IMG/VR virus record: IMGVR_UViG_3300032896_000014
Span: 1 to 22,441 of that record
Length of the DNA: 22,441 bases
DNA from: a virus
Direction: 5' to 3' (one strand)
In this document: one piece after another, positions 15,925-21,055 of the stretch
How positions within the stretch are numbered: the first letter of the stretch is position 1
Layout: each line of letters opens with the position of its first letter
Notes under the pieces: generated by a model
The model's input: only the letters and a program-made list of their open reading frames with translations
What the model was told of the DNA's origin: nothing
Database searches by the model: none
Program-made: the position numbers and the translations under genes

Positions 15925-16197
15925 TCACTCGATCGGCCAGCCATCAAGTCCGATCTCCGGTCTGGGTGCCCTCGTGCCGAATTGCTCGGCTGTCCTGATG
16001 CGGTGATGTCGATCGCAGAGGCAGCGGACATTCTCGTCGACGTCCTCGCCGCCCTGTGCGAGCGGCAGTATGTGATCCGGCACGGTAGCCAACACCAGCA
16101 GCCCGTCCTGCTCTTTGCAGTCTCGACAGAACGGCTCATTGGCTAGACGCCGGGCGCGAAGCTTCACGCCTCGACGGCCTCGGATGCGTTCACCCAT
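15925..16197 (-). CDS. HNH endonuclease of the packaging module
   Basis: A 90-residue protein from the ATG at 16197: MGERIRGRRGVKLRARRL. It has a zinc-binding CRDC (Cys24, Cys27) paired with CDRH (Cys61, His64), and the HNH catalytic core VPDHILPLAQGG (Asp41-His42), Asn56 and His65. The C-terminus RPEIGLDGWPIE is typical of the phage HNH family that lies next to terminase and is needed for cos cleavage in HK97-like phages. A TTG nine codons upstream would extend it, but it would place the start inside the AACGTT repeats and lacks homology-like sequence. It is the first gene after the noncoding control region and probably the first late gene. Confidence 0.9.
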   Translation of the reverse strand: MGERIRGRRGVKLRARRLANEPFCRDCKEQDGLLVLATVPDHILPLAQGGEDVDENVRCLCDRHHRIRTAEQFGTRAPRPEIGLDGWPIE

Positions 16198-16220
16198 GTT
16201 CAGGACCCTGCGCGGACGCC

Positions 16221-16250
16221 GCAAACGTTAGAAAACGTTGGCAAACGTTT
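16221..16250. repeat. Three 10-bp AACGTT repeats upstream of HNH gene
   Basis: GCAAACGTTA, GAAAACGTTG and GCAAACGTTT follow each other with an exact 10-bp period; the palindromic core AACGTT sits at 16224, 16234 and 16244. The array is 27-53 bp upstream of the HNH start and downstream of the terminator, so it would be transcribed in the leader of late mRNA. Sites on one face of the helix suggest binding of a protein in tandem. Confidence 0.7.
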
Positions 16251-16265
16251 CAGGCGGCGCGCTCT

Positions 16266-16301
16266 AAACGAAAAGCCCCGCCGGATTGCTCGGGCAGGGC
16301 T
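16266..16301 (-). terminator. Intrinsic terminator in the late leader
   Basis: On the minus strand AGCCCTGCCC (16301-16292), a loop, and GGCGGGGCT (16282-16274) make an imperfect GC-rich stem followed by TTTTCGTTT. It lies about 20 bases downstream of the expected start of the TTGACA promoter and 70 bases before the HNH ATG, so late transcription must pass it. Confidence 0.72.
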
Positions 16302-16327
16302 CCAGTCGCATTACTGCGAATGGTTTT

Positions 16328-16356
16328 CATCTAGGGTATTCGTGCCATGATGTCAA
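16328..16356 (-). promoter_or_regulatory. Candidate late promoter
   Basis: Minus strand TTGACA (16356-16351) matches the sigma-70 -35 consensus exactly. It is followed after 17 bp by TAGATG (16333-16328), a 3 of 6 match to the -10 box. Transcription would begin near 16321 and meet the terminator at once, the layout of lambda pR' and tR'. No other credible promoter is seen just before the late genes. Confidence 0.55.
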
Positions 16357-16374
16357 CAACTTGCGCGGAGTCAG

Positions 16375-16420
16375 GCGAGCGCTCGCTATAGGTGGTGCTC
16401 TTGGACAGGTGCGGTGTCCA
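16375..16420. promoter_or_regulatory. Two perfect dyads upstream of the late promoter
   Basis: GCGAGCGCTCGC (16375-16386) is a perfect 12-bp palindrome. TGGACA and TGTCCA (16402-16407 and 16415-16420) are perfect 6-base arms around 7 bases, an operator-like dyad about 46 bp upstream of the -35 box. Position suggests binding of an activator or of the late regulator. Confidence 0.5.
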
Positions 16421-16446
16421 TGGACGGTCGCGTGACTGTTCTGGGA

Positions 16447-16468
16447 CAGGGGTTACCCAGGGGTTATC
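16447..16468. repeat. 11-bp tandem repeat CAGGGGTTAYC
   Basis: CAGGGGTTACC (16447-16457) and CAGGGGTTATC (16458-16468) are head to tail with one mismatch. Slightly further right, TGCATTG (16500-16506) and CAATGCA (16541-16547), and GGCTATGCC (16528-16536) and GGCATAGGCC (16550-16559), form overlapping inverted pairs. Confidence 0.6.
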
Positions 16469-16592
16469 CCTAGCACGTGCTCAGCATTTGCTTGGCACCT
16501 GCATTGCAGATGCATCGGCACTGCCACGGCTATGCCGGCGCAATGCATTGGCATAGGCCACCGCCAGTGTTTTCAACAGCTTAGGTGAGGGG

Positions 16593-16714
16593 CTGTTTCG
16601 CTGCCTGTCTCGGTAGCTGTCTCGCCGGACGCAAGCTCGGGGCAGATATCCCCGCCATTTCATGGGCTTCCGCCGAATTGCTCTGTCTCAGGTTCTGTTT
16701 CGGCGGCCGTTTCG
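16593..16714. repeat. Two triplets of CTGTYTCG with 12-bp period
   Basis: CTGTTTCG, CTGTCTCG, CTGTCTCG start at 16593, 16605 and 16617. CTGTCTCA, CTGTTTCG, CCGTTTCG start at 16683, 16695 and 16707. Within each triplet the period is exactly 12 bp and the triplets start 90 bp apart. Between them CGGGG and CCCCG (16638-16654) form a small inverted repeat. Confidence 0.7.
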
Positions 16715-16724
16715 CAGAAGCCGG

Positions 16725-16770
16725 GCTTGAGCATTGCTTGAGCATTGCTAGTTCGGAACTGGTTCCGAAC
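16725..16770. repeat. 11-bp duplication and 20-bp perfect dyad
   Basis: GCTTGAGCATT occurs twice head to tail (16725-16746). Directly after it GTTCGGAAC, TG, GTTCCGAAC (16751-16770) is a perfect dyad with 9-base arms, the form of an operator for a dimeric repressor or activator. Confidence 0.7.
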
Positions 16771-16774
16771 CGGT

Positions 16775-16868
16775 GTCACGCTCTGTCACGCGTGACGCCT
16801 TGTGACGTAACGGTGACGTTACACCGCCGTCACGTGATGTCACGTGAGCGGGGCCGGTTTCACGTGAC
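16775..16868. repeat. Cluster of GTGAC/GTCAC sites
   Basis: GTCAC or GTGAC occurs at 16775, 16785, 16792, 16802, 16813, 16829, 16839 and 16864, many 10-11 bp apart. It contains a perfect 12-bp palindrome GTCACGCGTGAC (16785-16796), GTAACG/CGTTAC arms around GTGA (16807-16822), and a 10-bp tandem GTCACGTGAT, GTCACGTGAG (16829-16848). The density far exceeds chance for 94 bp. Confidence 0.75.
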
Positions 16869-16875
16869 ACCCATC

Positions 16876-16895
16876 GCGCTAGCATGCGCTAGCAT
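16876..16895. repeat. 10-bp duplication GCGCTAGCAT
   Basis: GCGCTAGCAT is perfectly repeated head to tail. Each copy contains the palindrome GCTAGC, and the junction makes GCATGC. Confidence 0.7.
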
Positions 16896-16984
16896 TTGGT
16901 TGCGGTTTGGCTCGGCTAAGGCGTTGTTTTTGTTGCATCCGGGGATCTTTTTCGGCGAGAAAAACTAGCTGAAAAGCCGCCGTT

Positions 16985-17058
16985 TTCCGCGGACTTCCGC
17001 CGACTTCTGCGGATTCGCCCTTGGGGCTCGGCTGCGTTCGGCTCGTCGAGCGTTCGGC
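16985..17058. repeat. 10-bp triplet TTCYGCSGAY and 9-bp repeat GCGTTCGGC
   Basis: TTCCGCGGAC, TTCCGCCGAC and TTCTGCGGAT (16985-17014) follow each other with a 10-bp period. GCGTTCGGC occurs at 17034-17042 and 17050-17058, 16 bp apart, ending just before the stop codon of the DUF6456-like gene. Confidence 0.6.
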
Positions 17059-17060
17059 GA

Positions 17061-17711
17061 TCACGCGGCGAATTGCAGCTCTTTCGCCAGTGCGCGCAAG
17101 TCCTGGTGCAGCACCGCCGCCATGTCGCGTTTGTTCGCGTCGCAGCCCTGGGCGATCTCGTCGGCGGTTTTTCCCTCGACGCAGTAGCTGATCAGGCGCT
17201 CGGTCGACGCGTGGCCGAGTCCGGCCAGCGCTTTCAGCTTGTCGATCGCCGCGATCCGGCCTTCGGCCATATCCGTCATGTGGCCCGAGCTCGTGCCGCG
17301 CAAAAAGTCGGCCGAACTGGCGATCGTCATGCCGGCGCGTTCGCAGAGCCGCGCGAATTGGCTGCCCGCATGGTAGAGCGCGCTCTGCGCGTTCCGGCCA
17401 TATCGCCACTCGAAACTGCCCGGCCGCGACCGGATGGTTTTCCGGCCGGTCATGTTGCCCGCCAGGCGGGTCCGAACTGTCGTCAGCTTCGTGCCGTCCT
17501 TGCCGCCGTCCTCCCGGCGCAATCGATCGACCTTTCGCGCCGCCGCGACGCGTTTTTTTAGGTCCTCGGCAACGTTCGCCGGTTCAGCCCGGTGCTCGGC
17601 GACTGCTTTCAGCAGCGCCGCCTGCCGCGCCCGCCGAATTTTCAGGTCGATCCGCTTCCCGTTGACCACCCGGATGCCCGGTTCGCGGGGCTTGTCTTTC
17701 CGCCTTCTCAT
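17061..17711 (-). CDS. DUF6456-like protein, possible late gene regulator
   Basis: I start this 216-residue protein at the ATG at 17711 (MRRRKDKPREPGIRV). The longer frame to 17894 only reads the DUF6074 gene in another frame. The first 75 residues are very basic (RIDLKIRRARQAALLKAV). The middle, YGRNAQSALYHAGSQFARLCERAGM (as GRNAQSALYHAG and FARLCERAG), and the C-terminus, IDKLKALAGLGHASTERLISYCVEGKTADEIA with LHQDLRALAKEL, follow the DUF6456 pattern: an entry helix, a link, then a helical bundle resembling a sigma-like helix-turn-helix. It is the last early gene and lies before the late control region, the position of lambda Q. A role in late gene activation or antitermination is inferred only. 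Confidence 0.65.
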   Translation of the reverse strand: MRRRKDKPREPGIRVVNGKRIDLKIRRARQAALLKAVAEHRAEPANVAEDLKKRVAAARKVDRLRREDGGKDGTKLTTVRTRLAGNMTGRKTIRSRPGSFEWRYGRNAQSALYHAGSQFARLCERAGMTIASSADFLRGTSSGHMTDMAEGRIAAIDKLKALAGLGHASTERLISYCVEGKTADEIAQGCDANKRDMAAVLHQDLRALAKELQFAA

Positions 17712-17733
17712 GCCCGCCGCACCTTTCCTGGTT

Positions 17734-18027
17734 TCAGGCCGCGTCGCTCGGGCCGCGATCGCGGTAGCCGTGCGCAAGCTCTGCCTGCACCGCATCAGCA
17801 AACGCGCGCAGTTGGGTGTCGGCCTCTGCCTTCGGCAGGCCGATCCGCTCAAAGTGCCTCTCCGCCGCCGATATGACTTGGCGCCAGTAGGCATCGGCGT
17901 CCGCGCCGTTTTTTCGGGCCAGAATTTCGGCTGTCCGCCGAATTTTGCCGACCCGCCGGTTCATCGGGAATGGGACCACCGCACAAGGCGGGGCCCACGC
18001 CTCTGTCGTTTCGAGTTTTCGCTTCAT
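17734..18027 (-). CDS. DUF6074 family protein
   Basis: A 97-residue protein. The motif CAVVPFPMNRRVGKIRRTAEILARKNG, seen here as VVPFPMNRRVGKIRR and DAYWRQVISAAERHFERIGL (as YWRQVI and ERHFERIG), is the DUF6074 signature of short alphaproteobacterial proteins, common in prophages and in Rhizobiales genomes. The rest is an amphipathic helical C-terminus. Function unknown. It overlaps the initiator candidate by 4 bp (ATGA at 18024-18027) and is followed after 22 bp by the DUF6456-like gene, so it belongs to the early operon. Confidence 0.82.
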   Translation of the reverse strand: MKRKLETTEAWAPPCAVVPFPMNRRVGKIRRTAEILARKNGADADAYWRQVISAAERHFERIGLPKAEADTQLRAFADAVQAELAHGYRDRGPSDAA

Positions 18028-18656
18028 GCCGCCTTCCTCTTGTGGCGGGAGGGGTCAGGCTGGCCGGGCCGCTTTTCGCTCCCTCCCTGTGGTATATTAT
18101 ATGTGGGTGACGTGGGCACCCCATTCATGTTGGCTACATCGGCCATTTCGGGTGACGTAGGCATCCCATTCGGGTGCTGTCGTCCCCCCATGTCCTTCTT
18201 GATCGGGTGATGTCGTCCCCTCATTGGGGTGCTGTCGTCACCCCGCGCTGTTGCCGGGGGTTGCCAGCGCATGAACTCTTTCGTCGGACCGGACAACACC
18301 TTGAGCGGATAGTCGACGGCGTGTTCGGTAAGAATGTAGGTGCTGGACCGGCTGCCGCCTTCCTTGCGCCATTTCCAGTCGAAATGCCCGATAGCTGCCC
18401 GCTTGATGAAGCCGCGCTCTATGAGCGTCCGCAGGGCGCGATCAGCAGGCTTGTTGCTGCAATTCAGCGCCGCGCGCATCTCTTCGCCACTAAAGCCGAT
18501 GTTGCCGTTGTTCGAGCCGTTGTAGCGCTGCTTGAACTCGATATAGAGCGCGCGCTCGTACACATCGAGGGAGCGCCAAGCAGCGCTGCGCGTGAACCAT
18601 TCGTACAGCCTGAGGTGACGTGGCTCGCCACCTGTGCGGCTATTCTTTTTCGTCAT
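18024..18656 (-). CDS. Winged-helix replication initiator candidate (lambda O-like role)
   Basis: A 210-residue protein. Residues about 25-115 form a winged-helix-type domain: AWRSLDVYERALYIEFKQRYNG (as SLDVYERALYIEF), NGNIGFSGEEMRAALNCS, ALRTLIERGFIKRA with the recognition helix, and a beta wing with STYILTEHAVDYP. KEFMRWQ follows. The C-terminal 75 residues are Pro/His/Gly-rich, repetitive and probably disordered. The DNA for this part contains five iteron-like repeats and an AT-rich stretch (18093-18248). A DNA-binding head plus an origin inside the gene is the arrangement of lambda O. It overlaps the topoisomerase-like gene by 4 bp upstream and DUF6074 downstream. Initiation function is inferred. 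Confidence 0.72.
   Translation of the reverse strand: MTKKNSRTGGEPRHLRLYEWFTRSAAWRSLDVYERALYIEFKQRYNGSNNGNIGFSGEEMRAALNCSNKPADRALRTLIERGFIKRAAIGHFDWKWRKEGGSRSSTYILTEHAVDYPLKVLSGPTKEFMRWQPPATARGDDSTPMRGRHHPIKKDMGGRQHPNGMPTSPEMADVANMNGVPTSPTYNIPQGGSEKRPGQPDPSRHKRKAA
18093..18248. repeat. Candidate replication origin: five iterons and AT-rich stretch inside the initiator gene
   Basis: Five related units on the plus strand start at 18105 (GGGTGACGTGGGCACCCC), 18150 (GGGTGACGTAGGCATCCC), 18172 (GGGTGCTGTCGTCCCCCC), 18205 (GGGTGATGTCGTCCCCTC) and 18227 (GGGTGCTGTCGTCACCCC). Start spacings are 45, 22, 33 and 22, close to whole helical turns. The last unit is a perfect dyad, GGGGTG N7 CACCCC. The AT stretch TATATTATAT (18093-18102) flanks the first unit. 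The units fall in three reading frames, which argues for selection on DNA. Confidence 0.72.
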
Positions 18657-21055
18657 TCTGCGACTCCGTTTCTATTGGTGAGAACTCTTTCAAGCGCTTC
18701 CTCCCAAGGCAGTGTCTGATCGCTTTCAAATTCCCGCCGAACCTTGTCAGCGAGATCGGCCGGCAACCCCACTCCGGCCGCATAGTCTCGAGCCGCCCTT
18801 TCCAGATCGGCGACCGTCTTTTTCAGGTGGTGACGGCCAATGATCTGCCGTGCGCAACGCTCCAGGCTGTCAGCGTCCGGGACGACCTTTTCAACACCAT
18901 GATCGCGCAGCCCTTGTTCGATCCAGGCGACGAAAACGTCTGAGGGCATGGCATTGAGTTCAACACGCTCGCCCCCGGCAATGAAGTGCAACTCGTCGGG
19001 TGTCGCGCCGTGCTCCCGTAGGCCGTCCAAGATGCGCCGGTGATCGCCTTCGATCTCCTGTCGCTCAGCCTGTAGCTTCATCGCATCGGCCTGGGCGTAG
19101 GTGAGCCCGAGACGCCGGATATCGGGCTCATGAGTGAACCGGTAGCGCGCGCTGTCGCTGCCGAGCGTCCCGAAAATGCGGATGCCGGCCATGTCGAGAT
19201 CGTGAGCGACAAGGATCTTCGCTCCAGCCGCTGAAATGCGGTCTACCATCTTGCGCGCCGCGATAACCGACATGCCCTTGGTCGACATGACGCCGATGTC
19301 GAAACGCTCGGCGATCTGCGCGGCACGGATCAGCGGCTCGAAGCCTTCCTTCTCGATGAACAGGACAGCCCCATAGCGGTCACCGGGTCCGTCGGTGGCG
19401 CTGAGGCCGCTGGTGGTCGAAATGAGCGCCGTATCGACGCGCGGACGGCGCTGGAGGTATTCCCGGACCTGGATAGTGCCCAGGGGCACGCTGCTGCCCG
19501 TGTGAGGCTCTACAAAGTGGCCGCGCGCATCATAGACGACGTCCCAGTCGGCCGTGATGTCTGGGAACTCTTCCATGAAGGCAGGAAGCAGGTTCTGCGT
19601 GAAGTAGGCGTCTTTCAGCTTGCTGGAACCGGTGCGCTGCAGAATGATCGGGCGAGCGGCGTACATGATCTGACGGGCATTTGCAGGAAGGGTTCCGCCG
19701 GCGCTGGCTTTCAGATAGGCATCTTCCATCGCATCGAAGGCAGCAACCTTGATGGACACCGACTTGCTGACAGGCCGGTGCGCCCGCCGAAGGGCTGAGC
19801 CTATGCAGGATGCGAGGGCATGTCGGAAGGGAGCCAGGTCTGGCGTCTTGCCGTCACTGATCAGCGCGATCGCGGGGGTGGTGATCGCTATCTTGACCCC
19901 ATAGGACCCCTTGGCCACGACGCCGATTGACGTCGCTGGCATTCCGCAACCTCGAACGATGGAGCTGCCGCCGATCTGGATATCGATCTCTGCGACGGCA
20001 GGGGTGCGGTTGACGATCAACTGCGGCCAATACTGCGTACCCTTGCCGCTGTGATACTCAGTCGCCCATACCTGCACGATCGCGGGGACCTTGGCTCCAG
20101 CTATCTCAGCTTCGATCTTCTCAGCCTTATAGGCCCCGTCGAACATGTCTTCCGCGATGGCGATCAGTTTCGGCGGCTTCGGCGCCAATGACTTGAGAAG
20201 GTCGAGCGACAGGCTGCGCGCTGCCCCGTCCGGGTCGATGTCACGCTTGGGTGTGCCTGATTGAGCCTGCTCACCACGACCGCGTAGAGCGTGACGCAGG
20301 TCGACGCCGAAAAGGCCAGCGAGGTCCTGGGCGGTGCCCTGAGCGGCTTCCACCATCTCCCTGAACGCGGGCTCAGAATACCAGCTTGGGTGCGTCAGCA
20401 TGGGCGTGGCGGCGTCGCCGGCAAGCTGAATGGCTGTGTCGCCCCAAGCCGTCGAATATTCGTCCCGCGGCAGGGCCGGGCCAAAGCGGATCGTGATCTT
20501 GGTGCCGGCTGTTACTGCGCTCGCCGCTCGCGCGGTGACGATCGTATCTCCCGTGGTGCGGTCGAAGGACAGTTCCTGCCGCGTCCCCATGCTTTCAACG
20601 ATGAGGGAGCCGCCACTCGCGAAGGCAGCGCCAGCTACAACGCGGTTGCCATTTCCGACCATGCCGCGCGTCGGCCGGCGTATCAGCTTCGATGACATCA
20701 TCGGCCGCGTGACTGAGAACATCGTCGCCACCTTCGCGGGATCGATGCCTGGGCCAGTGTCGGTTACAATGAAGGTGTCCTCGTCGAGGGCCGTGAGAGT
20801 TGCCGATGGCCCGGCGTCGAGGGCGTTGTCGACGAGCTCTTTCAGCGCCATACGCCGGAGTTCGCGCTTGGACGCGCCAGCCTTCTGGCTCAGCCGGTCC
20901 GGGTGCAGGAATAGGCTGGCATCCGTCCGAATGAACTCGATCGATGCCGCGACCGATTCCCGAGCGCGCTGGCGGCGCTTCCGCTCACGGGCGAGGTCCC
21001 GCACCGACGAGGCGGGGCTAGAACTTGCGCTAACGGCCCTGGCAGCGTCGCTCAT
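18653..21055 (-). CDS. Topoisomerase VIII-like protein: TopoVI-B-type ATPase fused to TopoVI-A/Spo11-type part
   Basis: An 800-residue protein. The GHKL ATPase has the N-box ELVDNALDAG (Glu73, Asp76, Asn77), G1 DTGPGID (99-105) and the ATP-lid GMVGNGNR (131-138). A transducer-like domain follows (about 210-440), with Lys403 in SDGKTPD a candidate switch lysine. Then comes a winged-helix part with RQIMY (461-465), matching the R-E/D-I-Y-Y motif whose last Tyr (Tyr465) cuts DNA in TopoVI-A/Spo11. The Toprim domain has FIEKEGF (Glu568), STKGM (591-595) and HDLDMAG (Asp619, Asp621). All key residues are present, so it should be an active type IIB-like enzyme. The B-then-A order in one chain is the topoisomerase VIII layout. 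It is coupled to both neighbours by ATGA overlaps. Confidence 0.85.
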   Translation of the reverse strand: MSDAARAVSASSSPASSVRDLARERKRRQRARESVAASIEFIRTDASLFLHPDRLSQKAGASKRELRRMALKELVDNALDAGPSATLTALDEDTFIVTDTGPGIDPAKVATMFSVTRPMMSSKLIRRPTRGMVGNGNRVVAGAAFASGGSLIVESMGTRQELSFDRTTGDTIVTARAASAVTAGTKITIRFGPALPRDEYSTAWGDTAIQLAGDAATPMLTHPSWYSEPAFREMVEAAQGTAQDLAGLFGVDLRHALRGRGEQAQSGTPKRDIDPDGAARSLSLDLLKSLAPKPPKLIAIAEDMFDGAYKAEKIEAEIAGAKVPAIVQVWATEYHSGKGTQYWPQLIVNRTPAVAEIDIQIGGSSIVRGCGMPATSIGVVAKGSYGVKIAITTPAIALISDGKTPDLAPFRHALASCIGSALRRAHRPVSKSVSIKVAAFDAMEDAYLKASAGGTLPANARQIMYAARPIILQRTGSSKLKDAYFTQNLLPAFMEEFPDITADWDVVYDARGHFVEPHTGSSVPLGTIQVREYLQRRPRVDTALISTTSGLSATDGPGDRYGAVLFIEKEGFEPLIRAAQIAERFDIGVMSTKGMSVIAARKMVDRISAAGAKILVAHDLDMAGIRIFGTLGSDSARYRFTHEPDIRRLGLTYAQADAMKLQAERQEIEGDHRRILDGLREHGATPDELHFIAGGERVELNAMPSDVFVAWIEQGLRDHGVEKVVPDADSLERCARQIIGRHHLKKTVADLERAARDYAAGVGLPADLADKVRREFESDQTLPWEEALERVLTNRNGVAE

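Follow-up and report, generated by a model that had tools for sequence, protein, structure and literature searches.

Origins of replication that lie inside initiator genes are known in principle from lambda gene O (PMC7466680) and SPP1 gene 38 (PMC6316719). The lambdoid O-protein iterons are repeated initiator sites within gene O (PMC7466680), and the 22-bp iterons in a putative initiator gene of the phage studied here (18024-18656) follow the same plan. The stretch that is our subject (16198-17060) is unlike lambdoid in-gene origins in that it is non-coding, is built from 10-12 bp units with about ten words, and has no AT-rich tract. In SPP1, oriL lies in gene 38, oriR lies ~13 kb away, and gp38 binds both (PMC6316719); here, too, a candidate origin in the initiator gene is accompanied by a second repeat region elsewhere, but whereas both SPP1 origins bind one protein, the second region here lacks the phage's own iterons. 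Lambda iterons cloned on a plasmid, together with OOP RNA, exclude lambda (PMC3349717). This replicative inhibition (IP), in which iteron DNA in the cell blocks an incoming phage, resembles the proposal made below; however, it involves laboratory plasmids and lambda's own iterons and needs OOP RNA (PMC3349717), whereas here several foreign-type words occur in a natural phage. The literature searched yielded no natural phage decoy of such a kind.

The window (22,441 nt, the whole stretch of viral DNA analyzed) is a fragment of a phage whose relatives occur in soil bacteria such as Aminobacter. Based on the ORF list, ~860 bp of non-coding DNA at 16198-17060 separates the early from the late genes. 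The first-pass annotation had these coordinates right: the stretch is non-coding from its left border, the likely HNH start (ATG 16197), to its right border, the stop of gene 17061-17894. The HNH ORF is open as far as TTG 16224, an alternative start, and the TerL that follows is HK97-like (38% to HK97). Three other readings of the stretch were rejected: a single gene, as ORF 16585-16968 has no family match; a decayed initiator gene, as TBLASTN with ten initiators as queries identified no initiator domain in the stretch; and an RNA element, as Rfam matches were at chance level only. Related phages carry no conserved gene through this stretch. The fold z-score of −4.4 for the region is expected because of its palindromes, and DNA similarity to phages and plasmids consisted essentially of the terminator stem, plus chance-level pieces. 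Feature coordinates are collected in Table 1.

Table 1. Features in and around the non-coding stretch (window coordinates).
Feature	Coordinates	Strand	Basis or counterpart
HNH endonuclease gene, first late gene, ahead of TerL	15925-16197	−	Pfam HNH E=1.1e-4; ORF list
AAACGTT x3, 10-bp spacing, between terminator and HNH start	16223-16249		TRF, lag runs
Intrinsic terminator AGCCCTGCC..GGCGGGGCTTTT	16270-16302	−	Fold, alignment, DNA similarity of stem to other phages
Short leader hairpin TCGCAGTAATGCGA, conserved as GCAnnnTGC	16306-16319	−	Alignment
Putative late promoter TTGACA-N17-TAGATG	16328-16356	−	Alignment with 7 relatives
CAGGGGTTA x2, 11-bp spacing	16447-16466		Lag-run analysis
TGC..GCA array, 11-bp register, ~7 degenerate units	16470-16557		Matches Rhizobiales DUF1376 initiator linkers and L001 slot
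CTGTYTCG (=CGARACAG) x3, 12-bp spacing	16593-16624		In-gene counterpart L213 (phrog_2514 type)
Second CTGTYTCG group, 12-bp spacing, degenerate final copy	16683-16714		By eye and script
GCTTGAGCATT x2.3, 11-bp; reverse strand AATGCTCAAGC	16725-16749		TRF
GTTCGGAAC/GTTCCGAAC, 11-bp spacing	16751-16772		TRF; MARIRSIHPGL-type initiators carry counterparts
GTGACG/CGTCAC and TCACGTGA half-site array, 10-11 bp	16774-16868		Lag runs, script
GCGCTAGCAT x2, 10-bp	16876-16895		TRF
45-bp stretch, 80% identity to linker DNA of Rhizobiales DUF1376 initiator L260	16912-16956		E=7e-4; E=6e-4 (the latter computed against a small initiator set only)
TTCCGCSGAC x3, 10-bp	16985-17013		TRF, lag runs; similar words in L002 slot
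DUF6456-like gene, candidate late regulator, sigma-4-like HTH hinted	17061-17894	−	Alignment
Putative replication initiator / DnaD-like helicase loader	18024-18656	−	phrog_186 E=0.0036, weak
Five in-gene iterons GGGTG(AC/CT/AT)GTNGKC.CCCC, own origin candidate	18105-18244		Spacings 45, 22, 33, 22

Tandem runs of 8 or more bases at lags of 10-12 numbered 6 in 16225-17060, compared with 0.05 in dinucleotide shuffles (0/1000). Such runs averaged 0.18 (maximum 2) in other segments of the window and 0.14 (maximum 4, in L061) in related loci, for which the background comprised 1544 equal-sized, half-overlapping segments. Against the same background, with a lag-11 self-matching excess of −0.007 ± 0.018 (maximum 0.065), the stretch reached 0.099, ~6 standard deviations higher. 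Palindromes of 8 or more bases were also in excess (11 vs 4.1 expected, a number attained by 7 of 1000 shuffles), and of the short arrays with periods of 10-16 identified by TRF, seven fell within the stretch, compared with 14 for the remaining 21.6 kb of the window. The first-pass annotation had reported many one-turn repeat families of 10-12 bp, together with perfect dyads, and had named shuffled sequence in advance as a possible refutation; shuffling did not reproduce the arrays, and both reports hold.

By eye and script, we distinguished at least nine different words, about ten in all, many of them palindromic and mostly in 2-3 copies each. The families, with their periods, are AAACGTT (10), CAGGGGTTA (11), TGC..GCA (11), CTGTYTCG (12), GCTTGAGCATT (11), GTTCSGAAC (11), GTGACG/TCACGTGA (10-11), GCGCTAGCAT (10), and TTCCGCSGAC (10). 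Because AACGTT, GACGTT, and CACGTG have a common ACGT core, there may be fewer families than is apparent. The stretch has several copies of short words in helical register, as an iteron-type initiator-binding region would; a single-operator intergenic region would have one repeated motif, not about ten words.

When viral contigs were scanned for the window's words, arrays turned up within phage replication genes, which come before DnaB- or DnaC-like genes and belong to families annotated as DnaD-like loader, primosomal protein, or replication initiation protein. In these word-directed searches, arrays of CGARACAG, CTCAAGCAATG, GTTCSGAAC, and AACGTT elsewhere lay largely in initiators, and counterparts of the GCTTGAGCATT/AATGCTCAAGC array were identified in initiators L232, L238, L243, and L249. 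Because these searches were directed by words, we also assembled 41 initiator genes by protein similarity or HMM, with no word used. This set contained 75 one-turn runs vs 6.7 in shuffles, spread over 32 of the 41 genes, with far fewer runs at other lags; arrays with this spacing thus typify in-gene origins. All four members of Rhizobiales phrog_2514 had 12-bp in-gene arrays. Within these genes the units are often spaced 11 bp apart; as 11 is no multiple of three, the spacing is imposed at the DNA level. Each single-unit slip at 11 bp would lose the reading frame, so these in-gene arrays did not arise by single in-frame slips, and in these genes at least, their one-turn spacing is under selection; expansion by simple slippage, as proposed in the first-pass annotation, is accordingly disfavored. 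Arrays of this kind mark the origin in a large proportion of phage initiator genes, offering a simple origin finder, and a search for them could also locate non-coding copies of origins in phage genomes.

In the linkers of several unrelated initiator families (L212-L225, L259-L272, L365-L448), arrays of 10-12 bp words are common, and the words change from phage to phage. Arrays of AACGTT and of GTGACGTCAC/GTCACGTGAC occur together in one initiator linker at L329:4080-4190, L317:285-345, and L295:5420-5500; these words have a common ACGT core, so words may drift within an array.

We compared the TGC/GCA array with Rhizobiales DUF1376 initiator linkers collected by HMM, and four of them matched at E≤0.05 (L391, L390, L262, and L414), with weaker matches to others. 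The reversed region gave 0 matches, and 1 of 25 shuffles gave one. Doublets of GCAATGC were present in 12 of 112 initiator loci, and doublets of the reversed word in 0. Judged by its sequence, the window's TGC/GCA array uses the vocabulary of Rhizobiales DUF1376 initiators. Caution is needed with single matches, as another 863-bp segment of the window, which is coding DNA, likewise matched the initiator set 4 times. For all window words against the word-independent initiators, sharing was not significant (18 vs 13.8; 48 of 500 shuffles), nor was it for array words only in the word-independent sample (2 vs 0.73, p=0.17). AACGTT, TTCSGAA, GCTAGC, and GGGGTTA were unsupported as initiator words in the word-independent initiator loci, and TTCSGAA was unused in 17 MARIRS-type initiators that had been gathered with no word as a guide. 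Triplets of AAACGTT were absent from 179 Rhizobiales-order genomes, and the DUF1376 initiator of G002 did not match the L002 slot array in the same genome. A broad vocabulary common to the window and initiators is thus not supported: word-independent evidence for other words was absent or weak, and only the TGC/GCA array was retained.

The phage's own iterons begin at 18105, 18150, 18172, 18205, and 18227, with spacings of 45, 22, 33, and 22; they are of the 22-bp type and in register. They are not enriched in the non-coding region (6 weak core hits vs 5.2 expected), and the region has fewer 8-mers in common with the own initiator linker than average. Because the own initiator gene carries this different 22-bp iteron, most of the arrays look non-self. 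No DUF1376 protein is encoded in the window, which is a 22-kb fragment of the phage, so a second phage initiator may exist outside it. A DUF1376 protein is also absent from the whole genome holding L001, though L001, an Aminobacter prophage, has a DUF1376-type array; its early region contains no second GCAATGC array and no initiator that we recognized by eye.

These results bear on whether the stretch is an accessory origin of the phage itself, fired in SPP1-like fashion by its own or an unrecognized initiator. The array architecture is origin-like, SPP1 provides a precedent for two origins, and arrays occur in the same slot in L001 and in a second Aminobacter prophage, L002, the former with no initiator recognized by eye in its early region. 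Besides the lack of enrichment of own iterons, however, there is no AT-rich unwinding element in the stretch (A+T ≤52% in every 50 bp), and L003, L084, L089, and L090 have no arrays at the same place. We regard an accessory origin as unlikely, though as the foremost of the alternatives.

Our preferred but tentative reading is that the stretch is a mosaic of arrays for the binding of initiators, mostly non-self ones, and may act as a decoy or as an opportunistic origin. The arrays would be iteron-type sites, bound cooperatively by initiators on one helix face, and as the phage genome multiplies they would capture initiators of co-resident or superinfecting phages. Drawing foreign initiators from their own in-gene origins would amount to interference; firing of a foreign initiator at the stretch would make it an opportunistic origin. 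Titration of rival initiators and opportunistic firing are the two explanations that rank highest. We consider it rather unlikely that the stretch is a multi-specific sponge by which a temperate phage, on replicating its genome, starves incoming or co-induced phages of several rival lineages or borrows their initiators. If the arrays do bind foreign initiators, they would form a layer of phage competition that works through DNA sites only, involves no protein for annotation, and would escape gene-based defense searches.

The stretch also contains a promoter-hairpin-terminator module that went unnoticed in the first-pass annotation. Its promoter elements, on the minus strand, are TTGACA (16356-16351) and TAGATG (16333-16328), separated by a 17-bp spacer that is conserved as CACGAAACCCC and reads CACGAATACCC in the window. 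The alignment with seven relatives has 13 invariant columns; the putative promoter (16328-16356) was missed by a generic sigma-70 scan. In the seven relatives, the homologue of the 17061 gene is followed by TTGAC-N-CACGAAACCCCCTAT, a short GCA..TGC hairpin, and mostly a terminator, with a terminator equivalent in L001, L002, L003, L084, and L089 and no clear one in L085 and L090. The window's terminator folds at −25.1 kcal/mol for 16255-16310, with a z-score of only −1.7. The DUF6456 match of the adjacent gene has E=4e-4 in relatives, under the curated cut-off, and the structure model of its product was too poor for use (mean pLDDT 55). A conserved promoter, a leader hairpin, and a terminator, the parts of a late-control module, are all present. 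In lambda, the late promoter pR' is followed at once by a hairpin and the terminator tR', beside a regulator gene, and the window has the same succession beside its DUF6456-like gene; unlike in lambda, the candidate regulator is DUF6456-like with a putative antiterminator role, and the module also occurs in array-free relatives.

Might the arrays themselves be operators or enhancers for the DUF6456-like protein and for phage or host regulators, serving the promoter at 16328-16356? The presence of the conserved module after the DUF6456-like gene, the AAACGTT triplet just ahead of HNH, and the many palindromic words are consistent with late control. The module is nevertheless conserved in relatives without arrays (L003, L084, and L089) and is therefore separate from the arrays, about ten words would demand about as many regulators, and in L001 and L002 the arrays come after the terminator rather than ahead of the promoter. 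We find this role for the arrays improbable, on a par with the multi-specific sponge. The first-pass annotation had suggested a composite of late control and packaging (cos): a late-control neighbor is supported by the aligned module at 16356-16270 after the DUF6456-like gene, whereas the packaging part is not supported, as detailed below.

To the right of the late module lies a variable slot that in relatives holds toxin-antitoxin or other genes, nothing, or arrays. After the late module, L001:6060-7224 and L002:6037-6662 are cargo sites with toxin-antitoxin-like genes on the opposite strand, assigned by eye. The L085 slot holds other-strand genes, one of them kinase-like, the L084 slot holds a helix-turn-helix gene, and the L089 slot has almost nothing ahead of HNH. 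In L001 and L002, one-turn arrays stand directly behind the terminator (L002 autocorrelation 0.504 vs 0.284; 0/300 shuffles), and their words resemble window types (GCATTGC/GCAATGC, GCTAGCA, and TTCCGCGG); an alignment of the L001 array to the TGC/GCA array of the window gives 81% over 36 bp. Arrays therefore recur in the slot, while content and position turn over.

Such turnover is also consistent with relics of in-gene origins left by initiator exchanges, or with neutral growth by short duplications, neither having a present function. The resemblance of the 45-bp stretch to the linker DNA of initiator L260 extends past the array words, and in one prophage a DUF1376 initiator adjoins a topoisomerase gene, a stretch of which is 72% identical to its counterpart in the window; initiators therefore differ between relatives, and the relic explanation gains some weight. 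Against it, the stretch shows no initiator-domain trace, the arrays abut with gaps within ~10 bp, and 11-bp in-gene arrays elsewhere are impossible by single in-frame slips. We consider relics or neutral growth doubtful, and less probable than either an accessory origin or late-control operators. The window's own topoisomerase gene (18653-21055, minus strand) encodes a single chain of 800 aa that combines a GHKL ATPase part with a Topo VI-A/Spo11 Toprim part, and its predicted product resembles a fused topoisomerase of type IIB, similar to Topo VIII. The chain had no match among 50,697 phage records; a relative of 804 aa occurs in a Rhizobiales prophage.

HK97-like TerL proteins are of the HNH-associated cos type, and the stretch lies directly upstream of HNH and TerL, as a packaging region with cos and binding repeats for terminase or HNH would. 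No TerS-like or cos feature was found, terminase relatives lack neighboring arrays except for L061 with its one word, and the multitude of unrelated words does not resemble a cosB site, so we judge packaging very improbable. At L061:4174-4470, one-turn GGTGACGCAC arrays in both orientations occupy the same gap before HNH-TerL, and they differ from the window's in using one word only and in adjoining a VirE-like helicase gene (assigned by eye).

Several different one-turn words also occur in other non-coding stretches of phage contigs: at L347:13550-14302 after a repressor-like gene, at L327:700-870 before terminase-like genes, and at L360:5500-6100. The window is thus an extreme case of a wider pattern.
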